Shown here: piece after piece, positions 687 through 17,067 of the stretch
Position numbering within the stretch: position 1 is the first letter of the stretch
How the letters are laid out: the number at the start of each line of letters is the position of its first letter
From: Ignisphaera sp.
GTDB lineage: Archaea; Thermoproteota; Thermoprotei_A; Sulfolobales; Ignisphaeraceae
Assembly (NCBI GenBank): GCA_028275825.1
Contig: JAPWTX010000012.1
Coordinates: forward strand, 1 to 43,208
Reading direction: 5' to 3'
Length of the DNA stretch: 43,208 nucleotides
Translations under genes and position numbers: made by a program
The notes under the pieces: generated by a model
The model's input: the letters and a program-made list of their open reading frames with translations, nothing else
The model's database searches: none
What the model was told of the DNA's origin: nothing

Positions 687-2588
687 TTATACAGGTTTTG
701 AAATAATGTATGAAGGTAGTCTGAGGTTTTGCACGAATTCTTGTTTGAATAGGGGGTGTGCTGCTAGTTCTATGTAATTTATTTTCTTTGCTAGTTCTTC
801 AAATCTCTTTCTGATTTCCACTGATTTTAGAGCCATTTTTGCACCGCTGATAGCAGTGTTGCCGACGAAGGTGTATTTTCTTTGGCTTGTTTTTGGCAGC
901 AACCCTACTTCCATTGCGTTTTCAATGTTTATGTATGTGCCGAAAGAGCCTGCTATATAGATTTTTTCAATATTTTCAACGCTGAGGTTTGTGTGTCTTA
1001 GAAGCACATTTATTCCAGTTGCAACAGCTGCTTTTGCTAAGATGAATTCATTTATGTCTCTCCCATCGATAGCTATATCCTTGTTTATACCTGTTTCACT
1101 AGCCCACACTATCACAAACTTCTTTCTCCCATTTTCTACTGTGAGTCTCTTGGATTCCACACCTTCTCTGAACCTCCCCCTAAAATCAATTATCCCCAAC
1201 TTATAGAGATTAGTTACAATGTCAATGAGTGCCGAACCACATATCCCCACAGGTTTCGAACCTCCAATAACAGTATATCTCACGCTGTAATCTCCTAGGG
1301 ACTTGTCAAAGTATATAAATACCTGATCTATAGCTCCAACTACAGCTCTCATCCCAAAGGATATAGAGGCTCCTTCAAAAGCAGGTCCTGCTGGTGTTGA
1401 GCATGCAAGAATTTCCTTGCCTGTGTTCAATATGATTTCGCTATTTGTACCAATATCTATTAGCATGCAAGGCTCTTTACATTCATCGAGTCCAACTGCC
1501 ACAGCATCTGCAAGTGCATCTGAACCTACATAACCTGCTACAACTGGCAATGCATATACAACACCTCTTTCATTAATCTCTATCCCCAGCTCCTTAGCAT
1601 ATGCATATACACCCCTTCTAACAGCTGGTACATATGGCGACAACCCTAGATAGCTAGGATTTATACCAAGGAAGAGATGATGCATAGCTGTATTTCCTGC
1701 TACTACAACTTCATACACATCCCTCTTATCCACACCACTCCTAGAAGTCGTCCTCTCTATAAGAATGTTTATAGCTTTTACAACAAGTTGCTGTAACTTA
1801 GCTAAGTTTTCAGAACTCTTCATAGCATATGTTATCCTAGAGATTATATCTGCTCCAAAACTAGCTTGAGGATTCTGCATAGACTCAACAGCTACTGTTT
1901 CCCCTGTACTCAAATCCACAAGGTGTAACACTATCTTCGATGTTCCAATATCTACAGCGACGCCATAGAGTCTTTTCCTCGTGTCGCCTGCCTCAACATC
2001 GAGAAGCTTGTTGTTCCAGAAAACTAGAGTTGTAGACCAGTCACCACCTCTAAGCACATCTGGAATTTTTTTAACTATATACAAATCGGTATCAACACCA
2101 TCAACATCTACATAACTAGAAACCCCTTCTAACAACCTCTCTAGATCAGCCCTAACATCCTCTAGAGAAGCAGGTTTAGCAAGAGCAAAAAACTTTCTTA
2201 TAGCAGGCTTTAGAACAACCTCTCTTTCAAAACCTATATCAGCAGATTTATATTTCTGCAAAAGGCTTTCAAAAGGAATCCAAACAGTATACTCTCCAGT
2301 AACAACCTTAACCTGGCAAGCTAGCCTCACTCCTTTATCAATATCATCTACACTCAAAAACCTCTTCTCAGCTTCTGTTAAAGGTGTAGTTACACCCCCC
2401 TCAACAATTATCTTGCATTTCCCACATTCGCCAATACCACCGCAATCAGATCTTATAGGAATTCCATTCTCTCTCAAAACATCGAGAAAAGTTTTGCCAG
2501 CATCAGCATTGATATACTTGCTAAAGTTTCTCAAAAATACCTTAGCCATGCTATTAGACAAGGTGCATAGCCACCCAAACAAAACCAT
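687..2588 (-). CDS. RACo-like ASKHA ATPase with N-terminal 2Fe-2S ferredoxin domain (DUF4445 family)
   Basis: The N-terminus is a plant-type [2Fe-2S] ferredoxin domain with cysteines at residues 49, 55, 58 (CGGIGECGKC) and 91. After a linker, an ASKHA-type ATPase core starts near residue 208 (AVDIGTSKIVLHL) and continues with GNTAMHHLFLG, DIGTNSEI and GSFGTYINIENA motifs of the DUF4445/COG3894 family. Characterised members (RACo) use ATP to drive reductive reactivation of corrinoid proteins; that role is family knowledge, and no corrinoid protein or methyltransferase partner lies in this window. A TATA-like box at 2612-2620 puts transcription start almost on the 2588 codon (leaderless); an internal ATG at 2549 would start exactly at the ferredoxin domain and is a real alternative. 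Divergently transcribed from the nucleoside importer. About 620-630 residues is normal for the family. Confidence 0.85.
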   Translation of the reverse strand: MVLFGWLCTLSNSMAKVFLRNFSKYINADAGKTFLDVLRENGIPIRSDCGGIGECGKCKIIVEGGVTTPLTEAEKRFLSVDDIDKGVRLACQVKVVTGEYTVWIPFESLLQKYKSADIGFEREVVLKPAIRKFFALAKPASLEDVRADLERLLEGVSSYVDVDGVDTDLYIVKKIPDVLRGGDWSTTLVFWNNKLLDVEAGDTRKRLYGVAVDIGTSKIVLHLVDLSTGETVAVESMQNPQASFGADIISRITYAMKSSENLAKLQQLVVKAINILIERTTSRSGVDKRDVYEVVVAGNTAMHHLFLGINPSYLGLSPYVPAVRRGVYAYAKELGIEINERGVVYALPVVAGYVGSDALADAVAVGLDECKEPCMLIDIGTNSEIILNTGKEILACSTPAGPAFEGASISFGMRAVVGAIDQVFIYFDKSLGDYSVRYTVIGGSKPVGICGSALIDIVTNLYKLGIIDFRGRFREGVESKRLTVENGRKKFVIVWASETGINKDIAIDGRDINEFILAKAAVATGINVLLRHTNLSVENIEKIYIAGSFGTYINIENAMEVGLLPKTSQRKYTFVGNTAISGAKMALKSVEIRKRFEELAKKINYIELAAHPLFKQEFVQNLRLPSYIISKPV

Positions 2589-2778: not shown

Positions 2779-4260
2779 ATGGCTAGAGTAACTAGCTATG
2801 TGTTAGCAATAGTGTTATTGATTATAGGTATAGTGGTAGGGTACTACGCAGGTTATTATACAACACCTCAGAAAACAGTAACAATGACCACTACACTAAC
2901 AGGAGTACCCTCAACTACTACAGTAACTGTAACCACTACTCTGCAGACCTCCCAACCCTCTACTCAAGTGTCGTATACTGTTCCTGAAAAGATTAAGGCT
3001 GCATGGATTTATGTAGGTCCTGTCGGTGATTTTGGCTGGAGCTATATGCATGATGTTGGTAGAAGAGTTGTTGCAGGGCTTTTTAAGGATTGGCTAGAGA
3101 CAACATATGTTGAACAGGTTAGTGCTGACCAATCACCTGCTGTAATGGATGACCTGGTTCGTAAGGGATACACAGTTATCTTTACTACGAGCTTTGACTT
3201 CATGGATCAGACCTATGACAAGGCTCATCAATATCCAAACATCATGTTCTTCCACTGCTCTGGATACAAGAGAGCTCCAAACATGGGCACTTACTTTGCT
3301 GATCTCTATCAAGTGTACTACCTCAATGGGTTAATGGCTGGTGCACTTACAAAAACTGGTAAAATAGGTTATGTAGCAGCACACACTATTCCCGAGGTTA
3401 TCAGGCATATAAATGCATATGCTATTGGTGCAAAGGAGGTTGGAGAGCAGCTAGGCAAGAACATAACAGTCTACGTTATAGAGATTGGTGAGTGGTTCAA
3501 CCCTGATAAGGCTAGGGCTGCAGCTGATACACTTGTAAAGCAGTTCAATGTTGATGTGCTTGCCTTTACAGAGGATTCCGCAGCTACAGTTGAGTATGCT
3601 GAGAACTTATATAAGCAGGGTAAGGAGGTATATGTTTTCAGTCACTACAGCCCGATGTATGAGTGGGGACCAGATGTAGTAATTAGTGGGCAGCTAGTGA
3701 GATGGGAGGTTATATACACCGATATCCTAGCCAAGGTCAAGGCAGGTATATACAGACCAGGCAATCTAGAAAATGTTGATTACTGGTATCTACTCAATTC
3801 CGGAGCTGTTGATCTCGGGGCATATGTGTATCCAAATGGTAGTATAATGCATATAAACCCCAAGTTCATACCTATACTCAAAAGCATTAAGGTTAAGGAT
3901 GTTTTGACTGGAGAGGAGCTAACAGTATATGACCTTGTGATGAGAAGATATCAGCAAATGAAGGAAGCACCACTACTACAACCACTGCAAGGACAGGCTA
4001 TAACACATTTACTAGAGTCTATAGAAAATATATCAACGGGCGCTAGCCACGTACCTACAGTATTAATAGCACCAAGTTTTGAACCGTTTACAGGACCTCT
4101 AAAAGGCTATTGTCTCCCAGGAATGCATTACTCAAGGTTCTGCACAGGGAAACCTGACAATGCTGAAGTAGATATACCTGCTGGAGAGAGACTTACACAT
4201 GATGATCTATGGAATATGGACTTCTTCGTATCCTGGGTAGCTTTCCAGGGAAGAATATAA
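2779..4260 (+). CDS. BMP-family (nucleoside-type) ABC transporter substrate-binding protein
   Basis: Membrane-anchored solute receptor. Residues about 5-30 form one hydrophobic segment, followed by a Thr/Ser-rich spacer (about 32-75, with VTMTTT and TVTVTTT runs) typical of crenarchaeal binding proteins, then a Bmp (PF02608) domain beginning at KIKAAWIYVGPVGDFGWSY and including DLVRKGYTVIFTT and GMHYSRFCTG. Family members bind purine and other nucleosides or autoinducer-like ligands; the two permeases and the double ATPase downstream support a nucleoside-type importer. GGTGA sits directly in front of the ATG and a TATA-like TTTTTTAAGG lies at about 2736-2745. First gene of a probable five-gene operon running to 8704. 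The exact ligand cannot be read from sequence. Confidence 0.9.
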   Translation: MARVTSYVLAIVLLIIGIVVGYYAGYYTTPQKTVTMTTTLTGVPSTTTVTVTTTLQTSQPSTQVSYTVPEKIKAAWIYVGPVGDFGWSYMHDVGRRVVAGLFKDWLETTYVEQVSADQSPAVMDDLVRKGYTVIFTTSFDFMDQTYDKAHQYPNIMFFHCSGYKRAPNMGTYFADLYQVYYLNGLMAGALTKTGKIGYVAAHTIPEVIRHINAYAIGAKEVGEQLGKNITVYVIEIGEWFNPDKARAAADTLVKQFNVDVLAFTEDSAATVEYAENLYKQGKEVYVFSHYSPMYEWGPDVVISGQLVRWEVIYTDILAKVKAGIYRPGNLENVDYWYLLNSGAVDLGAYVYPNGSIMHINPKFIPILKSIKVKDVLTGEELTVYDLVMRRYQQMKEAPLLQPLQGQAITHLLESIENISTGASHVPTVLIAPSFEPFTGPLKGYCLPGMHYSRFCTGKPDNAEVDIPAGERLTHDDLWNMDFFVSWVAFQGRI

Positions 4261-4313
4261 TGTTCTCTAAAAGTAGAATATTTTTTATTGATATATCTTC
4301 ATAGGTAATTCAC

Positions 4314-5786
4314 ATGATGATGCGCAAACCTTTCATCGAGGTTGTTGAAATTTATAAAAAGTTTGGAGATGTTATTGCGCTCAATGGTGTTAGCCTAGAG
4401 ATATACCCTGGAGAAATCCTAGCTGTTCTAGGTGAGAATGGCTCTGGAAAATCCACGCTAGCTAAAATACTCTATGGACTTTATTTTCCAGATAAAGGCT
4501 ATATTAAAGTAGATGATGTTGTAACAGTTTTTTCATCGCCAGCAGAGGCAAAGAATAGAGGCATATTTCTAGTAAGTCAAAGACCTCAACTAGTAGACGA
4601 TATGTCTGTTCTTGAAAATGTAGCACTCTTTCTCAACACATCCCCATCGAGAGATTTGAAGAAAAAGCTTGAAGTGACATTACGTGATCTGGGAATGGCT
4701 ATAGATGTTGATAGAGGTGTTTATACTCTTAGTTATACTGAAAAGCAATTCATAGACCTTGTAAAAGCCTTAATAACCCAACCCAGATTGCTTATTGTAG
4801 ATGAAGCTGCAACATATCTTCCTCGAGAGCTCAAACTAAAGTTCCTCGATATAATTAAAAAATTCGCTGCTAGGGGAGGTTCTGTTATGTACATAACTCA
4901 CAAGATATTGGAAGCAATCGAGATGGGAGACAGGTTTATTGTCCTTAGAAAAGGGGATGTTGTTGGAGTATTTGAGAAAGGTGTTGATGTAACAACAATT
5001 AGACGTGCGATGTTTGGTTCTGAAGAATATTTGACAACATTTAAGAGATCCCCAAAGAAGATTACACATGAATCCTTTGCACTATCTGTAGAAAACCTAA
5101 TAGTTTTTGATGAACATGGAAAGCCTTCGGTAAACGATGTTTCTCTCAATGTAAGGTCTGGAGAGCTCATATCTATTGTAGGCATTGCTGGCAATGGCCA
5201 GAAGGAGCTAGGAGAAGCTATAGCTGGTTTAAGAAAGGCTGCCAGGGGCAGGATAATGCTCAACGACAATGAAATAACGCATGCACCAGCAAGTGAAAGA
5301 ATTAAAAAGGGTCTTATCTACGTACCTGAAGATCCATTCAGAGAAGGTGTGGCAATGGGGCTTACAGTTGCTGAAAATGTGAAGCTATTTTCACAGTCTA
5401 AAGTATCTAGAGAACTCCTAGATGCTCTGATAAAGAAGCTTGATGTAAATCCAAGCAATCCTTTCATAAATGTTGCTAAGCTTTCTGGAGGCAATATACA
5501 GAAAGTTTCTCTAGCAAGGCTTTTACTAACAACGCCAAAAGTTGTAGTGGCATATAGCCCAACGAGAATGCTTGACGAAAGGTCAAAAACTTTGACCCTA
5601 AGTATCTTGCAAAGGTTAGCGGAATCTGGTTCAGCTGTTCTTCTTCTATCTGAAGATATAGAAGAGGTTCTTCACATTTCCACAAGATTAGGGGTTATGG
5701 TTAGCGGCAAAATTGTGAGATTTTTTGAGACCCCCGATCTAGAGAGTTGTAGAGAGGATATAGAGAAGGTCATGGTTCATGCCTAA
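4314..5786 (+). CDS. Nucleoside-type ABC importer ATPase, two fused ABC domains
   Basis: Two ABC domains in one chain, as in the YufO/RbsA class. Domain 1 has a full Walker A (GENGSGKST) and Walker B with catalytic Glu (LLIVDEAAT) but a degenerate signature (LSYTE). Domain 2 has a proper signature (LSGGNIQKVSLARLL), a modified Walker A (GIAGNGQKEL) and a Walker B without the catalytic Glu (VVVAYSPTRMLD). In the head-to-tail dimer this predicts one competent ATP site (A1/B1 with signature 2) and one degenerate site, as is usual in this class. It begins 53 bases after the binding-protein gene; its end overlaps the next permease by 8 bases (ATGCCTAA). The start has three ATGs in a row at 4314; any could be used. 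Confidence 0.93.
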   Translation: MMMRKPFIEVVEIYKKFGDVIALNGVSLEIYPGEILAVLGENGSGKSTLAKILYGLYFPDKGYIKVDDVVTVFSSPAEAKNRGIFLVSQRPQLVDDMSVLENVALFLNTSPSRDLKKKLEVTLRDLGMAIDVDRGVYTLSYTEKQFIDLVKALITQPRLLIVDEAATYLPRELKLKFLDIIKKFAARGGSVMYITHKILEAIEMGDRFIVLRKGDVVGVFEKGVDVTTIRRAMFGSEEYLTTFKRSPKKITHESFALSVENLIVFDEHGKPSVNDVSLNVRSGELISIVGIAGNGQKELGEAIAGLRKAARGRIMLNDNEITHAPASERIKKGLIYVPEDPFREGVAMGLTVAENVKLFSQSKVSRELLDALIKKLDVNPSNPFINVAKLSGGNIQKVSLARLLLTTPKVVVAYSPTRMLDERSKTLTLSILQRLAESGSAVLLLSEDIEEVLHISTRLGVMVSGKIVRFFETPDLESCREDIEKVMVHA

Positions 5787-6840
5787 GGTAGCTATTGTTA
5801 AGAGAGAGCTATCGAAAATCGCAACAGCGTTAGCAAAGGTGCTGGTAATTCTTCTAGGGCTACTACTTGCTGCAACTCTAACCTCTATTGCTACTGGAAA
5901 TACGCTAAAGCTTATCTCTATAACGCTTTTCCAAAGCTTCACAAACCTCAACGTCTTTGTTTACATATCAACACTACTACCAACTGCAGTAGGACTTTCT
6001 CTAGCGTTTAGTGCAAATGCTTGGAACCTTGGTGCAGAAGGGCAACTTGTTTTTGGTGCAATAGGGGCTACCTTCATAGCTCTTTTCACCCCCCTCGGAA
6101 GACAGGAAATTATAGCACCAATAGCAGCACTAATCTTTGCATCTTTCCTCGGCGCGCTATGGGCATTGCCTGCAGCACTTCTAAAAATGTTTCGAGGTAT
6201 TAATGAAGCTCTTACAACACTTCTAATGAACTTTATAGCGTATTATGTAGCAAACTACTTGGTTAAAGGGCCTTGGAGGGGTAGAACGGTTTATGGGTAT
6301 CCAACAACGGATATGATACCCATAGAATCGAGGATACCTACTGCCCCAGGCTATAGCTTTTCATGGTATGTAGTAGTGGCATGCATAGCAATAGCTGTAC
6401 TACTATACCTGTTTCTATATAGGACTAGGGTGGGCATAGCATTGAGAGCCCTTGGTTCAAGTATTCATTTTGTTGAGCTCTCTGGCTTATCGAGTAAAAA
6501 ACTTTTCCTTATAGCGTTTCTAATCTCAGGGGCCTTAGCAGGCTTTGCAGGGGGTGTGAAGATATTGGTTTATCATAAGAAGCTTGTAGAAGGACCTATT
6601 GTTGGGGGTGGTTATGGTTTTACATCAATCATGGTGTCTTGGCTTGGCGGACTAAATCCCCTGTTTGTAATCCCAGCATCGTACTACACAGCAGCGCTAT
6701 ACATCCTAAGCTTTGGTCTACAAATTGGTAGCGCAGCAGTTGGTGATGCTCTCTCAAGCACTATTGTTGGATTCCTCCTCGCTCTTATACTACTTGCTGA
6801 CTTCTTAACTAGGTATAGAATTGTTATCAGATTTAGGTGA
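5779..6840 (+). CDS. Nucleoside-type ABC importer permease 1 (BPD_transp_2)
   Basis: Polytopic membrane protein of 353 residues with about eight to ten hydrophobic segments. The motif NAWNLGAEGQLVFGAIGA near residue 80 and the segment GINEALTTLLMNFIAYY are hallmarks of the larger permease of BMP-type nucleoside transporters (YufP-like). The start overlaps the ATPase stop, implying translational coupling, and its own stop overlaps the GTG of permease 2. It should form the membrane channel together with that permease. Confidence 0.93.
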   Translation: MPKVAIVKRELSKIATALAKVLVILLGLLLAATLTSIATGNTLKLISITLFQSFTNLNVFVYISTLLPTAVGLSLAFSANAWNLGAEGQLVFGAIGATFIALFTPLGRQEIIAPIAALIFASFLGALWALPAALLKMFRGINEALTTLLMNFIAYYVANYLVKGPWRGRTVYGYPTTDMIPIESRIPTAPGYSFSWYVVVACIAIAVLLYLFLYRTRVGIALRALGSSIHFVELSGLSSKKLFLIAFLISGALAGFAGGVKILVYHKKLVEGPIVGGGYGFTSIMVSWLGGLNPLFVIPASYYTAALYILSFGLQIGSAAVGDALSSTIVGFLLALILLADFLTRYRIVIRFR

Positions 6841-7718
6841 GTTTCATGCTAGTAGAAGTAGTGAAAATTATTTCGGATCCATTGGTGGTAGCCCTAGTTC
6901 TATGGGTCTTGGGAGATATATTTGTTGAGAGGAGTGGTGTTATTAACCTAGCTCTAGATGGAATTATCACAGCAGCTATTGCAACAGCTTTTGTCTCTAC
7001 GCAAAACTTTGGGTATCTCATAAGCCTTTTAATCACAGTCACAATAACATTAGCCTTTGCATCACTCTTCATGATATTCATAAACATACTTCACGCATAC
7101 CATGTATTAACAGGGCTTGCACTAAATATACTATTCTATGGCTTAAGCGCCTTGATAGGATTGAGATTTCAACAATCGCCATCAATAACAACACTCAATC
7201 TAAATTCACTAACACTTGCTTCAATAAGCATCCTCACAGTAGCTCTTACATGGCTCATTTTATACAAGACATCTATAGGTACAGCTATAAGGGCATGTGG
7301 ATTTAATCCTAGAGCAGCTGAGCACTCAGGTGTCAAGGTTTGGAGAATAAGGTTTTTGGCTAGCGTTATTGGCTATATCGCTGTGGGTATAGGGAGCTAT
7401 ATATATGCAACTGTGTATAGAGGTGGGTGGTCTCAGTACACTGGAAGAGGTTACGGCTTTCTTGCCATAACCCTAGCCATGGCCTCTACCTGGCACCCTC
7501 TACTATCATACCCTATAACCCTGGCCTTCGGCTACCTCTATACATCAATATACTCTCTTCAGCTACTCTATGGAATTCCTCCAGACGTCATTAACGCTAT
7601 TCCCTACATAGCATCCATAACCATAGTTACAATAGTGTACAGCACACCCCTACATAAAAAGCTTGCAACACCTCGAGCATTAGGTGAAGTGTATTTTAGG
7701 GAAGAAAGAGCTGCCTAG
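6837..7718 (+). CDS. Nucleoside-type ABC importer permease 2 (BPD_transp_2)
   Basis: Second, shorter permease (293 residues, YufQ-like). It has the family segment ERSGVINLALDGIITAAIATAF near residue 30 and the coupling-helix region AIRACGFNPRAAEHSGVKV around residue 150. The GTG at 6837 overlaps the previous stop as GTGA; an ATG nine bases later (6846) is an alternative start. Completes a binding protein, ATPase and two-permease importer. Confidence 0.92.
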   Translation: MSFMLVEVVKIISDPLVVALVLWVLGDIFVERSGVINLALDGIITAAIATAFVSTQNFGYLISLLITVTITLAFASLFMIFINILHAYHVLTGLALNILFYGLSALIGLRFQQSPSITTLNLNSLTLASISILTVALTWLILYKTSIGTAIRACGFNPRAAEHSGVKVWRIRFLASVIGYIAVGIGSYIYATVYRGGWSQYTGRGYGFLAITLAMASTWHPLLSYPITLAFGYLYTSIYSLQLLYGIPPDVINAIPYIASITIVTIVYSTPLHKKLATPRALGEVYFREERAA

Positions 7719-7759
7719 AACAGCTACAACTCTGTATCAAGTCTTTAGATGGATGTCTT

Positions 7760-8704
7760 ATGCCATTTATAGATTTAGAGAGAATTGCACTAGTAAGTAA
7801 GGTAATTAAGAGCCTTAACCTAGGTTCTTCAAGATTTAACGTATTTGACCCTAGATACTACCCACCACCTGAAGATCCTCTTAAAAAGGTTGCTCTATAC
7901 TTTTTCGTAATGGTTGCTATGGACCATAGACTAAGTAGGCCTGGTAAGCCATATGAGGCCACTGTAGATGGTGAGAAGGCTAGAGGTGCAGATCTTCTAT
8001 ATAGACTTGGTATGAAGATGTATAGAGAGAAACCGGAGTTTTTTGACTCCACAAACCTAGCAAAGGTAACTACAGACGATGTTATTGCATGGCTTCACAT
8101 AGATGAAGCAAGGGTTCCTGACCCTCAGCTTAGAGCTCTATTGCTAAGGGATCTAGGACAAAAACTTCTTTCACTATATAGTGGAGATGTACTTGCATTA
8201 ATTCATCACTCCAAAGGCTATCTTAGATCCTTAGAAGGATATGGCCTCCTAGACTTGCTCAAGATATTTAAAGCATATCAGGATCCTGTTGAAAAGAAAT
8301 CTTTTCTCTTAGTCAAATTCCTGGTTTACAGAGGGGTATTTAGACCGAGAGATGTAGAAAATCTACATGTAGCTGTTGATAATCATCTGACGAGGGTTGC
8401 TCTAAGGCTTGGCATAATTAGGCTTGAAGAAATGCTCTTTAAGAAGGTCTTGAATGAAATAGAGCTTCTACATGATGAAGACATCTTAATACGAATCTCT
8501 GTAAGAGAAGGCTTTAAGGCTATGTCTAAGGAAAGTGATGTCGATGTGTTTTTATTGGATGACTTCTTCTGGCTTTTTGGAAGAAGTATTTGTATGCAGA
8601 GAAATCCCAAGTGCTTTTCATGTCCATTTAGATGGGTGTGCAGAGCCTATGAAGAGAATATATTCGTGAATGACCTTAATTACTACAATACTTGGTATTA
8701 CTAA
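7760..8704 (+). CDS. Endonuclease III-fold iron-sulfur protein, probable N-glycosylase-like enzyme
   Basis: 314 residues. The C-terminus holds C278-x6-C285-x2-C288-x5-C294, exactly the [4Fe-4S] loop spacing of endonuclease III/MutY. AVDNHLTRVALRLGII (205-220) aligns with the VDTHVxRVxxRLGL segment of that superfamily, so the catalytic aspartate is probably D207. The usual helix-hairpin-helix LPGVGxKTA is not visible; the equivalent region (185-193) reads VKFLVYRGV. An unusual conserved-looking N-terminal block (MVAMDHRLSRPGKPYEA, GADLLYRLGMK) is outside the standard glycosylase pattern. It lies 41 bases after the nucleoside permease on the same strand, so I infer action on nucleosides/nucleotides or damaged DNA. 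The Qng1 queuosine-salvage enzyme is a precedent for this fold acting on free nucleotides. The fold is fairly secure, the substrate is not. Confidence 0.7.
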   Translation: MPFIDLERIALVSKVIKSLNLGSSRFNVFDPRYYPPPEDPLKKVALYFFVMVAMDHRLSRPGKPYEATVDGEKARGADLLYRLGMKMYREKPEFFDSTNLAKVTTDDVIAWLHIDEARVPDPQLRALLLRDLGQKLLSLYSGDVLALIHHSKGYLRSLEGYGLLDLLKIFKAYQDPVEKKSFLLVKFLVYRGVFRPRDVENLHVAVDNHLTRVALRLGIIRLEEMLFKKVLNEIELLHDEDILIRISVREGFKAMSKESDVDVFLLDDFFWLFGRSICMQRNPKCFSCPFRWVCRAYEENIFVNDLNYYNTWYY

Positions 8705-9004: not shown

Positions 9005-9784
9005 CTAGTATCTATATTCCATTCCATATCTAGCTATTCTTCTCTCACATAGCAATCCTATCCAGCTGCTCACAACAATGAATATCGCTGTAAATAAGGG
9101 GGTTAGAGTCAGAAGCTGTGTTAAAGGCAAATTGTTAATACCGTATCCTGCTCTAAAAAGCTCTGCAACAATTGTTGCAGGATTTGCCAGAGCTATCCAC
9201 GGGTTTGGGAATATCTTTGGCGGTACTACTGTGCCGAATGTTGTAAGTATTTGTATTATGTTAACCCAAACACCGCTTATGTTTGTAGAGGTCATAAGGT
9301 ATCCTATAAGTGCCCCCATGAGCAGGTAAACTGGTATTGCTAAAAGAGTTGCTAGTGCTATGTATATAGGATTTTGGGGTAGTGCTGCGGTAATGCTGAT
9401 TTTAAGATAAGCTGAGGCTATTGCTATGGAGAGAAAATAGCTTGCAAAGCCTGTGAAAATCACGTCAACAATGGAATTGCTGAGAAGATAATGAAATACA
9501 TTTAGCCCACATTCTCTAAAGAGATCGGTGAGACCGTGATACACATTCCACCTCAGAAATTCTGTTGAAACCCACATAGCCGACATTGCTACAGCCATTG
9601 CATAAACACCTGGTGCAAGTGCGAGTAGAGCTTGTACTCCAAGTCCGCTGAAGAGCACTGTGGGAATGAACATTATTGAAAACCACAGAACTGAGCTAAC
9701 AATTGACGCAACGTAGCTTGTTATATGCATTTTAGCCAGTTGAAACCCTATATAAATTAAGTGAGCTAATCTCCTCATATTCAT
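9005..9784 (-). CDS. ABC-2 type transporter permease (second subunit)
   Basis: 259 residues with about six hydrophobic segments in an ABC-2 permease pattern, including a predicted periplasmic-side re-entrant region around NPWIALANPATIVAELFRAGYG, a motif seen in drug/polysaccharide-type ABC-2 exporters. Its ATG overlaps the previous permease stop by 4 bases. Third gene of an ATPase, permease, permease operon; the two different permeases probably form a heterodimer. Substrate unknown (efflux of a lipid, peptide or drug-like compound are all possible). Confidence 0.82.
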   Translation of the reverse strand: MNMRRLAHLIYIGFQLAKMHITSYVASIVSSVLWFSIMFIPTVLFSGLGVQALLALAPGVYAMAVAMSAMWVSTEFLRWNVYHGLTDLFRECGLNVFHYLLSNSIVDVIFTGFASYFLSIAIASAYLKISITAALPQNPIYIALATLLAIPVYLLMGALIGYLMTSTNISGVWVNIIQILTTFGTVVPPKIFPNPWIALANPATIVAELFRAGYGINNLPLTQLLTLTPLFTAIFIVVSSWIGLLCERRIARYGMEYRY

Positions 9785-10611
9785 CCTCTCCTCACCCTAA
9801 TCTCAGCACTTTTTGACAAAAGTCCAGAGAAAGCTATGTATAGCGTTGTGAAAAATGCTAAGACTGCTCCAAAGGTTAGTAGTACTTGTGAAAACCCCTT
9901 TGAAGCAATCACGTAGAGCACTTTACATGTCTCTGGAACTGGTGTGGTTAGTGCAATGAGCCTGAGGGCTAAGGGAACGAGCTCTACAGGTATGTATATT
10001 CCTGTACCTGCTAAGATCGCAGGTGCTAAGATGTTTGCTATTGTCCACGGCCTTGACACACTAGTGTGAAACGTTAGGGGTATGGCAAAAATAGTTGCAT
10101 AGAGGCCTAATACAACTGAAGTTAGCACTAGGATAGCCTCGACTATGAGAAATTCTGTAAATCCATCAATTCCATTTAAATACAGCAAGAGTGGAGCCAT
10201 ATATACTGTGGCAAGAGGTGTCATGAGTAATGGCCTTAGAATTGCATTGAGAGCTATGTATTTCACAAGACTTGTAGCCTCTAATATCATGGATCCCACC
10301 TCCATGAACCTAAACTCTGTGAATAAAGTCTGCATCACATCATTCACAGTCATTGCTACAACATTTATTATGCCTGTAAGTATGAGAGCAATGCTGTAAG
10401 CAGTTTTCAAATCCATTTCAACACCAAATAAAATGCTCATATTTTTGATAACAGCTGTGGGGCTACTTAGCGTTGCTGGAAGAAAAACAACCCCTAAGGA
10501 AAACGCTAGTGGGAGTATCCAGGAAACTACATAGTCAGGCAAAAATCTCTTGAACCAGGAGATCTCTCTATAGACAATGGCCTTAGCTATGTTCAGCACT
10601 ATACCCACCAC
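9781..10611 (-). CDS. ABC-2 type transporter permease (first subunit)
   Basis: 276 residues, about six hydrophobic segments, with an N-terminal amphipathic stretch (YREISWFKRFLPDY) before the first membrane segment, as usual for ABC-2 permeases. The GTG start at 10611 overlaps the 3' end of the ATPase gene by 29 bases; a second in-frame GTG at 10599 would shorten the overlap. Pairs with the permease encoded at 9005-9784. Confidence 0.82.
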   Translation of the reverse strand: MVGIVLNIAKAIVYREISWFKRFLPDYVVSWILPLAFSLGVVFLPATLSSPTAVIKNMSILFGVEMDLKTAYSIALILTGIINVVAMTVNDVMQTLFTEFRFMEVGSMILEATSLVKYIALNAILRPLLMTPLATVYMAPLLLYLNGIDGFTEFLIVEAILVLTSVVLGLYATIFAIPLTFHTSVSRPWTIANILAPAILAGTGIYIPVELVPLALRLIALTTPVPETCKVLYVIASKGFSQVLLTFGAVLAFFTTLYIAFSGLLSKSAEIRVRRG

Positions 10612-11578
10612 TAACTACAGCTATATAAGCATCTTCAAGTGTGGGTTCTTCAAACACAAAATCAATCATCCTAGCATTCACTAGTCGAAGTGCTTCTAAA
10701 ACACTCTGTATAACCTCTTCTCTACCAGCCTTAGCATAGAATACTATTTTTGAAACCCCACCAAGTTCTTCAACAATCACATTACTTATTCTTACAGAAT
10801 TTGAAATTCTATAGAGAAACTCTTTTGATGCTCCTTCAACCCTAATTACAACTCTATGAAGCAGCCCCAACCTTTGCTTCAAGTCTCGTGGAGTTCCTGA
10901 GGCAACTATCCTCCCACTATTTATTATAGAAATTGATGTTGCTATCTGCTCTATTTCAAACATGTTATGCCCTGTTATAAGTATTGTTCTACCCTCCTTC
11001 GCTAAGTCTCCTATGAGCCTCCTCACCATTTTTGCGCTCTCAACATCTAAACCAAGTGTGGGTTCATCTAGTAGAAGCACACTTGGATTTGTCAAAAGGG
11101 CTTTTGCAATTGAGAGCCTTGCCCTCATACCAAGGCTATAAGCATAGTAAGGCCTATTATGTGCTTCCATGCCCCAGAGGCCCACTAACTCCAAAACATC
11201 TTTTGCTCTCTTCCTAGCATCAGAATATGAGTAGCCCTTTAGCATGGCGTAGAACACCAAGTTTTCAAAACCTGTTAACGATGTGTAGAAACCTTTTGAT
11301 ACATCAAGCACCACACCTATTATCCTTCTCACTTCCTCAGCTTGTGAAACAACATCATAGCCTTCAACATAAGCTATGCCAGAATCTGGTAGAAGAAGCG
11401 TTGCCAGGATCTTAACGAGAGTAGTCTTTCCAGCACCATTAGGCCCTAGAAGAGCGTGTATTTCACCACTATTTGCAGAAAAACTCACCCCTCTAAGAGC
11501 CTCTACAACACGCTTCTTTCTAAACCCCTCTTTACTCACATAAGATTTTCTCACATCCTTCACAACAATACCTCTCAT
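10583..11578 (-). CDS. ABC-2 exporter ATPase (DrrA/CcmA-like)
   Basis: Single ABC domain with Walker A (GPNGAGKTT), Q-loop region, signature YSLGMRARLSIAKALL, Walker B LLLDEPTLGLD and switch His (LITGHNMFEIEQ), followed by a C-terminal extension of about 90 residues common in exporter ATPases. I chose the ATG at 11578: GAGGAG lies six bases upstream of it, while the in-frame ATG at 11602 has no such site. It powers the two ABC-2 permeases downstream and is divergently transcribed from the KaiC-like gene. Confidence 0.9.
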   Translation of the reverse strand: MRGIVVKDVRKSYVSKEGFRKKRVVEALRGVSFSANSGEIHALLGPNGAGKTTLVKILATLLLPDSGIAYVEGYDVVSQAEEVRRIIGVVLDVSKGFYTSLTGFENLVFYAMLKGYSYSDARKRAKDVLELVGLWGMEAHNRPYYAYSLGMRARLSIAKALLTNPSVLLLDEPTLGLDVESAKMVRRLIGDLAKEGRTILITGHNMFEIEQIATSISIINSGRIVASGTPRDLKQRLGLLHRVVIRVEGASKEFLYRISNSVRISNVIVEELGGVSKIVFYAKAGREEVIQSVLEALRLVNARMIDFVFEEPTLEDAYIAVVSGGYSAEHS

Positions 11579-11668
11579 TGCGAACTCCTCTTGCAAAAGC
11601 ATTTTTAATGCAGATTTATAGCATTCTTTATTTAGCAGTCAACAGTTAATATCTTGAAAAGCATAAAC

Positions 11669-14251: not shown

Positions 14252-14293
14252 AAAGCATTTTTACGTCTCACATTCTTAAATATTTTGGTGCAG

Positions 14294-15730
14294 ATGTTGG
14301 AGGATTTACTTCTCTATGCACTTAATGTAGCAAGCGAGCTTGGGGCTGGCTATGCAGAGGCTCGATACCATAAAGTAGATTCGATGGGGTTTATGTCGAG
14401 AAATGGTGTTTTGATTTCTGCTTTTAGTGAGGTCTCTGAAGGTATTGGCATTAGGGTGCTTGTGGAGGGCAGTCTAGGTTTTGCTTCAACTAATATTATA
14501 GACAAGGAGAATATACGCAAAGTTGTGGAGATAGCTGTTTCCAGGGCCAGAGCCCATGCAAAGCTTTTGAAAAAAAGCATAGAGTTCTCTGAAGCTAGGT
14601 TAGGTAGGGCAAGATACATTGTGGTACCTGTTAAAGACTTCGCAAACCTGAGTTTAGAGGATAAGGTGTCTATCCATAGAGAATTTTGGGAGAGAGTGTC
14701 AAAGGGTAGTGTGAGAGAGGCAAAGATTCCTGTTACAACACTTTCATATAATGAGTGGACAGAAGAGAAAATAGTTATGAATACTGATGGTGCGTTCATC
14801 TCTAGTATCGTGCCCAGACTCTCAATACACTATAATATTGTGGTTCACCACCCCCAAAGAGGCTATGCTCAGAGGTTTGAATCTTTTGGTGCTACTGGTG
14901 GTCTTGAGTGGTTGGAGAGATGGAGACTAATAGAATCTGGCGAAGAAGAGGCAAAGACTCTTGAAAAAGTTCTTCTAGAGGGTGTAGAGCCTCCTAGAGA
15001 TCCTGTGCCAGTTATAGTAGGGAGTGAGATAGTGGCTTTAATGGTTCATGAAAGCTGTGGGCATCCTAGTGAAGCTGATAGAATTCTTGGGAGAGAAGCT
15101 GCTCAAGCTGGTAAAAGCTTTATAAAGCCCAATATGCTGGGGCAGAGAATAGGAAATGAATATGCAACTGTAATAGATGATCCTACGATACCAGGTAGCT
15201 ATGGCTTTTACCTCTATGATGATGAGGGTGTTGCCGCAAGGGCTAGGTATCTGTATAAGGAGGGTATTATAAATGAATTTCTGCATAACAGGGCTACGGC
15301 AGGGATCTTTGGTGTTGAAAGCAATGCTGCTGCAAGGGCCATGGATTACGCAAGCGAGCCTATAATAAGAATGGCTAACACTTACCTGAAGCCTGGGAAT
15401 TACAGTTTTGAGGAGTTATTAGAGGGTATAAAGCTAGGGGTTTATATGAAGAGCTACATGGAGTGGAATATAGATGATGAGAGGTGGAGTCAGAGGTATG
15501 TAGGCTTAGAATCATACCTCATAGAAAATGGGGAGCTTACAAAACCTATTAGAAATCCTGTTCTCGAAATCACTACAAAAGCTTTTTATAGCAATATTGA
15601 TGCTGTAGGAAAGGAGTTGAGATTCTATGCAGGTACTTGTGGAAAAGGTGAGCCTTCTCAAGGTGTGCCTGTATGGTTTGGAGGTCCGGATGTTAGGTTG
15701 AAAAGTATTAGGCTGGGGATCGCTCTATGA
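14294..15730 (+). CDS. tldD: TldD-family metalloprotease subunit
   Basis: Member of the TldD/PmbA (U62) family. HESCGH in VMVHESCGHPSEADRI supplies the HExxxH zinc site that marks the catalytic TldD subunit. With its partner TldE it forms a heterodimeric protease that removes short or unfolded peptides; in bacteria the pair matures microcins and processes CcdA. The ATG at 14294 is preferred because it directly follows GGTGCAG and lies about 25 bases after a TTAAATA box; upstream TTG/GTG codons exist. The stop overlaps the partner start as ATGA. Confidence 0.92.
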   Translation: MLEDLLLYALNVASELGAGYAEARYHKVDSMGFMSRNGVLISAFSEVSEGIGIRVLVEGSLGFASTNIIDKENIRKVVEIAVSRARAHAKLLKKSIEFSEARLGRARYIVVPVKDFANLSLEDKVSIHREFWERVSKGSVREAKIPVTTLSYNEWTEEKIVMNTDGAFISSIVPRLSIHYNIVVHHPQRGYAQRFESFGATGGLEWLERWRLIESGEEEAKTLEKVLLEGVEPPRDPVPVIVGSEIVALMVHESCGHPSEADRILGREAAQAGKSFIKPNMLGQRIGNEYATVIDDPTIPGSYGFYLYDDEGVAARARYLYKEGIINEFLHNRATAGIFGVESNAAARAMDYASEPIIRMANTYLKPGNYSFEELLEGIKLGVYMKSYMEWNIDDERWSQRYVGLESYLIENGELTKPIRNPVLEITTKAFYSNIDAVGKELRFYAGTCGKGEPSQGVPVWFGGPDVRLKSIRLGIAL

Positions 15731-17067
15731 GTGATGTAAATCTGGATAACATATCTAGATTTGTAAATGAACTCATAAAGAAAGGTTTTGATGATGTTGC
15801 TGCAAAAGTTGAGGTAGTTGATAGTGTGATGACTAAAATAGCTAATAGTAGTGTAAGTATTGTTCAAAACTGGAAGAGGACTATAGTAGATCTTTATCTA
15901 GCTAAAAACAGAAGAATCTTTGTATTGCATTTTGAGCCTAAGAGTTTTAAAGATTTGCAGAAGCATGTTGACTCAGTAATCTCCTTAGCTGATAGAGTTA
16001 CAGAATCACCTATCTATGCACCTCTGCCAGAGCCTAGCAAGGTTAGGTATGTTGAGGAAGTGATTGATAAGAGGGTTATAGAAGCGGCTAACAACATGAA
16101 CAGTATTGCTGAGAGGGTTATAGAAGCGGCTCATAGAGAGAATATAGAGAGTGTTGCAGGGATGATGCAAGTGGGGTATAATGAGATCATTTTATCATCA
16201 TCGAAAGGAGCTTTATTGGAGGAGAAGAAGACCTTTGTGCAAGGGTATCTGAGAGCTTTTGCACAACCTGATGGTAGTGGTCAGTGGTGCTACACCTCGA
16301 CAACCCTTGACCTCAGCGGCTTGGAATCCATGGCCTTCACAGCTTCGCGCTATGCTGTAGACTCTAGAAATAGGTCTGAGATAGAGCCAGGGGTATACGA
16401 TGTCATATTAAGTCCAATGGTATTTGCAAATCTTCTAGAGTACATAACTTCCATGGCTTCAGCAATGTCTGTGATCATGGGCTGGTCCATGTTTATGAAG
16501 AATAGGCCTGGGGATGTGGTGGCCTCACAACTGTTAACACTTCAAGATGAGCCTAGAAACACAGAGTTACCAAACTTCCGGAGCTTTGATGATGAGGGTG
16601 TGGAGACATGCAATAAGTTGGTGATAGAGGGAGGGGTGCTTAGAACACTGCTTCACAATACCAAGACTGCTAAGTATATGAACACAACCACCACTGCTAA
16701 TGCTGGTTGGATAAATCCAGTGCCATGGAACATAGTTGTGAGACCGGGTTCAGCAACTCTAGATGAAATGGTTTCAGAGGTTAGAAGGGGTTTGTTTATA
16801 ACAAACAACTGGTATACAAGACTTCAGAACTATGTTGAAGGAATGTTTTCTACAGTAGCCAGGGATGCTATATTCTATATAGAGAATGGTAAGATAGTTA
16901 AGCCTGTAACCAAAATCAGAATAGCCGATAAACTAGGAAACATCTTAAAAAATGTAGCTATAGTTGGAAGAGAGCTTTACAACATACAATGGTGGGAAGT
17001 GGGAATACCAATGAAAACCCCCTACATACTAGTAAAAAGTATAAACATATCAAAACACACCATATAA
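15727..17067 (+). CDS. tldE: TldE/PmbA-family protease partner subunit
   Basis: 446 residues; homologous to TldD but without the HExxxH zinc motif, as expected for the TldE/PmbA half. Family features include VAGMMQVGYNEIILSSSKG, PGVYDVILSPMVFANLLEY and FRSFDDEGVETC. It overlaps tldD by four bases, giving a coupled pair. Base use shifts from G/T-rich at the start to A/C-rich in the last 150 bases. Confidence 0.92.
   Translation: MSDVNLDNISRFVNELIKKGFDDVAAKVEVVDSVMTKIANSSVSIVQNWKRTIVDLYLAKNRRIFVLHFEPKSFKDLQKHVDSVISLADRVTESPIYAPLPEPSKVRYVEEVIDKRVIEAANNMNSIAERVIEAAHRENIESVAGMMQVGYNEIILSSSKGALLEEKKTFVQGYLRAFAQPDGSGQWCYTSTTLDLSGLESMAFTASRYAVDSRNRSEIEPGVYDVILSPMVFANLLEYITSMASAMSVIMGWSMFMKNRPGDVVASQLLTLQDEPRNTELPNFRSFDDEGVETCNKLVIEGGVLRTLLHNTKTAKYMNTTTTANAGWINPVPWNIVVRPGSATLDEMVSEVRRGLFITNNWYTRLQNYVEGMFSTVARDAIFYIENGKIVKPVTKIRIADKLGNILKNVAIVGRELYNIQWWEVGIPMKTPYILVKSINISKHTI

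Follow-up and report, generated by a model that had tools for sequence, protein, structure and literature searches.

The window analysed here, 43,208 nt in length, is a whole contig (G000:C71) of a 1.81-Mb archaeal genome. Four importer genes in it are followed by a gene for a 314-aa protein (hereafter the target), which starts with ATG (Table 1). The original prediction described the importer genes as overlapping or nearly abutting and placed the target gene 41 bases downstream of them. The coordinates agreed in both respects: a gap of 53 nt separates the binding protein gene from the ATPase gene, the latter overlaps the gene of permease 1 by 8 nt, the two permease genes overlap by 4 nt, and the target gene begins after a 41-nt gap.

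Table 1. Features of the importer-target region (positions in the window)
Feature	Position	Strand	Evidence
BMP-family substrate-binding lipoprotein, AtzT/3s99-like (purine-base binding subfamily)	2779..4260	+	Pfam Bmp, 108.7 bits
Double-domain ABC ATPase of the importer	4314..5786	+	Pfam ABC_tran, 160.3 bits, 2 stretches
Importer permease 1	5779..6840	+	Pfam BPD_transp_2, 116.2 bits
Importer permease 2 (GTG start)	6837..7718	+	Pfam BPD_transp_2, 75.1 bits
Target: putative FeS HhH-GPD N-glycosidase of Qng1/AGOG type	7760..8704	+	Q_salvage 25.8 bits; Foldseek Qng1 TM 0.77; conservation in 130 homologues
EndoIII-type iron-sulphur loop of the target, C278-x6-C285-x2-C288-x5-C294	8591..8641	+	Cys spacing; conservation

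The four genes, for a Bmp protein, a double ATPase and two BPD_transp_2 permeases in the expected order, make up a standard ABC importer of BMP type. The top NCBIfam match of its ATPase, ABC_ATP_B6 (344 bits), is below the cut-off of 670. In the PDB, the binding protein matched 3s99 (E 2.5e-47) and AtzT (6pi5, E 9.5e-47). It is 37% identical to AtzT, and 4 of the 7 listed guanine contacts of AtzT (Ser97, Phe98, Glu165 and Trp194) are the same residues in it; Tyr45 is replaced with Trp, Asn220 with Asp and Asn218 with Thr. AtzT binds guanine with an affinity of 110 nM and adenine with 2.5 µM but hardly binds GTP, and nucleosides are not among the compounds in the ligand table of that report (PMC6834077). 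By its likeness to the guanine-binding AtzT, the importer probably takes up purine bases, which are likelier ligands than nucleosides. Of the "nucleoside importer operon" proposed originally, the BMP-type importer was upheld by Pfam, but the ligand was not, because the closest solved relatives bind free guanine or adenine. Divergent to the importer, there is a gene for a RACo-type corrinoid reductive activator with Fer2 and RACo domains (window 687-2588, minus strand); a gene of this type also stays beside the importer in L034, L037, L145 and L146.

We compared 115 loci carrying the target gene, counted neighbours within four genes and mapped the changes on a 127-row gene tree. In 8 of these loci the importer was near the target gene; the tree required 2 changes for this. 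Seven of the eight form one genus clade (SH-aLRT 88). Within this clade, the importer lies upstream on the same strand as the target in the window, L033, L034, L145 and L146, but downstream and convergent in L036 and L037; importer and target are therefore not a single operon there. The eighth locus, L082 (Thermoprotei bin B50_G16), is unrelated to this clade; it has the same importer genes on the strand opposite to the target, at a distance of two to four genes. Where genomes outside the genus consist of a single contig, the importer and the target are tens of kilobases or more apart. The original prediction suggested that the target hydrolyses nucleosides delivered by the adjacent importer. 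The 41-nt same-strand spacing, with the same layout in L033, L034 and L146, is consistent with this idea, and nucleoside phosphorylase-family genes adjoin or lie near the target gene in several other lineages. However, the homologues sit mostly in contexts other than beside BMP-type transporters, an outcome that the original prediction had named as breaking the link, so the functional tie is unsupported; the association goes back essentially to a single gain within one genus, where it shows two orientations, and the binding protein resembles free-base binders. We consider nucleoside hydrolysis coupled to import improbable, and as a family-wide function it is refuted. The importer is probably an independent, genus-specific neighbour of the target.

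The target family was present in 147 of 229 genomes in a search across the class and, in a spread sample of the phylum, also outside the class, including the Thermoproteaceae- and Thermofilaceae-like groups (f25 and f34). It is widespread among hyperthermophile archaea, Thermoproteia and relatives; judged by the target protein, the closest named relatives of the genome of the window are Ignisphaera-type Desulfurococcales. In an alignment of 130 distinct homologues, G76, R125, D131, P176 and K180 were invariant, and D55, D175 and C278 were found in 129 sequences. The spacing of the four cysteines in the target is exactly that of EndoIII, as originally noted, and although inserts sometimes lengthen the spacing in homologues, each cysteine is kept in 126-129 of the 130 (126-127 for the three other than C278), so that their presence is not due to chance. 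The aspartate of the VDNH motif (D207-N208-H209) is kept in 127 homologues. The canonical HhH GVG hairpin is indeed missing, and the family motif is A-Y-[QE]-D-P-V-E-K-K. The N-terminal block MVAMDHRLSRPGKPYEA, which had been regarded as extra, is a real family signature (D55 in 129, H56 in 126 and R57 in 126 homologues) but not an addition: in the alignment, its counterparts are SYRLTGKGEEHW in AGOG and NFCFWGEPRW in Qng1. The few sequences that broke the conservation were truncated, frameshifted or very divergent. One very divergent homologue, in L162 (G061:C5:49500-66000), has lost most FeS cysteines and K179 but retains D207 and K180, and its synteny is of the usual Acidilobaceae type, with PBP2 and ThiI-, Trm5- and Taw3-like neighbours. 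In L178 (G297:C150), G531 and G537, the gene appears to be split across two frames.

The affiliation of the target was examined with Pfam, a structural model and profile alignments. The target passed the Pfam Q_salvage gathering cut-off marginally (25.8 bits against 25.0) and had no match to AGOG or HhH-GPD PF00730 at E up to 1; its motif is DPVEKK. Among 19 homologues, Q_salvage matched 18 (E up to 0.1) and AGOG matched 14 weakly. With the AF2 model of the target (pLDDT 93.5), the best eleven Foldseek hits were all DUF2419/Qng1 chains (7u91, TM 0.77, E 1e-11), and EndoIII was the second kind, far weaker (E 8e-5). The profile of the target family aligned with Qng1 over columns 41-245, with AGOG over 1-277 and with EndoIII over 200-299 only; the scores were comparable, so sequence alone names no closest relative, and it is the fold that points to Qng1. 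The comparison with Qng1 raised in the original prediction was thus borne out by Q_salvage and Foldseek, and a fold of this kind can serve free nucleotides.

Each of these relatives differs from the target. Qng1 (PF10343; PDB 7u07, 7u91 and 7ugk) is the best whole-length fold match, and its R140 and E146 align with R125 and D131, but the identity is about 17-18%; the NFCFW hallmark of the two solved members is replaced with DHRLSRPG, and D-x3-W of the target is followed by a four-Cys FeS loop, whereas the tail of human Qng1 is free of Cys. The target is not a plain Qng1. AGOG (PF09171; PDB 1xqo) shares with the target the K-K motif, a similar S.iP..LDsLLW..GR helix and equivalents of D172, D218 and W222, but lacks the FeS loop. 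EndoIII and MutY (PDB 1orn and 2abk) share the [4Fe-4S] cysteine spacing, the V-D-x-H aspartate and the C-terminal match, whereas the target has no GVG hairpin and possesses its own N-terminal domain; nor is the target an EndoIII. By sequence and model, the target family is conserved and uncharacterised, and within the HhH-GPD superfamily it is a variant that combines a Qng1-like fold with an EndoIII-type FeS loop. The union of a Qng1/AGOG pocket with such a loop is unseen in the characterised members compared here, and our literature search found no paper naming this family.

Matches of active-site residues between the target and Qng1 were derived from alignment and spacing. K199 and D231 of Qng1 were located by means of the K199C and D231N PDB chains (FYK199RAQ and FAD231YKVPQ); D231 aligned with D207 of the target and K199 with K179, or with K180 when the hairpin of EndoIII is taken as the reference. 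D298 and W302 are active-site residues of Qng1 (PMC11592518). In AGOG, W222 stacks on 8-oxoG, D218 touches the base, and mutation of W222, K147 or Q31 abolishes the activity (PMC9638937, PMC3397491). D267-x3-W271 of the target has the same spacing as D298/W302 of Qng1 and D218/W222 of AGOG, and K186 probably matches K147 of AGOG. K179 and D207 were each found in 127 of the 130 homologues, and D267 and W271 each in 126. Gln31 of AGOG, which discriminates between 8-oxoG and G, is replaced with Arg in 80 of the 130 homologues, Lys in 16 and others in the rest, and Gln is not among the common residues at this position. With D-x3-W kept and Gln31 not conserved, the pocket of the target seems shaped for a guanine-type base but lacks the residue that reads 8-oxoG.

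The conservation also bears on whether the target is an enzyme at all. It could be a non-catalytic FeS protein that binds nucleic acid or a guanine-type ligand and serves as a sensor or structural factor, since the four cysteines and the non-standard motif set are conserved as strongly as the predicted catalytic residues. The retention of K180 in all 130 homologues and of D207 in 127 is hard to explain without catalysis, however, and we regard a non-catalytic role as very improbable.

The commonest neighbour of the target gene was the gene of PBP2 (PolB1-binding protein 2, Pfam PF22511), which is a subunit of PolB1, the replicative polymerase. It lies within four genes in 51 of the 115 loci (for example, L089:8959-9264) with 11 changes on the tree, and in 31 of the named loci it immediately follows the target gene on its strand; the link outlasts rearrangements. 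Because pbp2 has been described as an isolated ORF whose surroundings vary (PMC5418573), this linkage seems to be new. In seven loci, a dUTPase gene overlaps or abuts the target gene upstream. The family has a median pI of 8.4, compared with 4.8 and 5.9 for Qng1 fragments and 8.7-9.7 for AGOG/EndoIII. These neighbours, together with the EndoIII/MutY-like FeS loop, the AGOG-like pocket and the basic pI, would suit a DNA glycosylase that works with the PolB1 holoenzyme at the replication fork and excises oxidised or damaged guanine or a related purine. Most genomes bearing the target gene also have AGOG, however, and the genome of the window encodes its own AGOG (G000:C21) and EndoIII (G000:C50) apart from the target, so the classic DNA glycosylase activities are already covered. 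Replacement of the residue that reads N7-H of 8-oxoG, the absence of the GVG hairpin and a fold nearest to a free-nucleotide enzyme also argue against action on DNA, which we consider possible but not probable. The co-occurrence in most of the same genomes led us to reject the target as an AGOG replacement as well.

A QueD/PTPS-family gene is adjacent to the target gene in 16 of 19 Thermoproteaceae-type loci, tens of nucleotides away and nearly always divergent; its score of 32.6 is far below the QueD cut-off of 89. Two proteins of about 150 and 358 aa that are common neighbours in loci of Acidilobaceae had no informative family match.

The distribution of the target gene was compared with those of genes for 7-deazaguanine metabolism. 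TGT was above the cut-off in 211 of the 229 class genomes. Counting strong QueC hits, and with unlisted gene-negative genomes assigned by elimination, 126 high-completeness class genomes were divided into 25 with the target gene and QueC, 60 with the target gene only, 37 with QueC only and 4 with neither. The target gene was thus present in 60 of the 64 good genomes without QueC, and TGT was kept in 58 of those 60; the genome of the window likewise has TGT and no strong QueC hit. Without Sulfolobaceae, the association with QueC had p = 0.01, a statistic that ignores descent. The pattern is suggestive of 7-deazaguanine salvage, but descent confounds it and it fails outside the class. Thermoproteaceae and Thermofilaceae carry both the target and QueC, so the target is no simple substitute for preQ0 synthesis, and the association is partial and restricted to the class. 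YhhQ/QPTR was rejected as a common salvage marker: it is absent from the genus and occurs in 65 of the 229 genomes in no clear pattern. In G139, G140, G141, G142 and G154, the coordinates place QueC next to YhhQ (Vut_1), the preQ0 transporter.

From family, fold, conservation and gene contexts, as given by sequence and model, we infer that the target is an N-glycosidase that removes a guanine-type base, with a lean towards free or RNA-derived 7-deazaguanine- or guanine-type nucleotides or nucleosides; we put the probability of this reading at roughly 45%. The HhH lysine (K179 or K180) and D207 would attack the glycosidic bond, D267 would read the base edge and W271 would stack on the base, after the roles of K199, D231, D298 and W302 in Qng1 and of K140, D172, D218 and W222 in AGOG. 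The predicted [4Fe-4S] loop of EndoIII type would close the C-terminus and probably steadies the fold at high temperature. The freed base may be reused by arcTGT or enter purine salvage. Independently of the target, the importer beside it probably supplies purine bases.

We lean towards such free or RNA-derived substrates on account of the Qng1-first fold, the QueC-negative, TGT-positive pattern, the QueD/PTPS and phosphorylase neighbours and the weakly basic FeS loop (mean +0.5 in the family; the EndoIII of the same organism has KAKKPL there). Against this, PBP2 as the commonest neighbour points to DNA, and to our knowledge all characterised HhH enzymes with such an FeS loop act on DNA; the intermediate pI, the co-occurrence with QueC outside the class, the descent-confounded statistic and the low QueD score of the PTPS neighbour also count against our reading. 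The more specific proposal, a [4Fe-4S] HhH enzyme that acts on free or RNA-derived nucleotides and recycles 7-deazaguanine (preQ0/archaeosine) bases in hyperthermophilic archaea, is possible but not probable. If it holds, the target would be the first FeS glycosidase with this fold to act elsewhere than in DNA repair, and a living bridge that links the DNA-repair glycosylases to Qng1. Action on nucleotides would show how queuosine-type salvage could have evolved out of DNA repair and where archaea with TGT but no QueC get their 7-deazaguanine; action on DNA would make the target a new glycosylase for guanine lesions with a tie to the replicative polymerase.

Beyond the target gene, the window contains an ABC-2-like exporter (9005-11602, minus strand), composed of an ATPase and two membrane proteins without a Pfam match, which is conserved beside the target in several loci of the genus. 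Further downstream (14285-17067, plus strand), two related genes overlap; their products, about 450-480 aa long, look TldD/PmbA-like by eye. The pair recurs close to the target in L035, L147, L148 and L159, although the other genes there differ.
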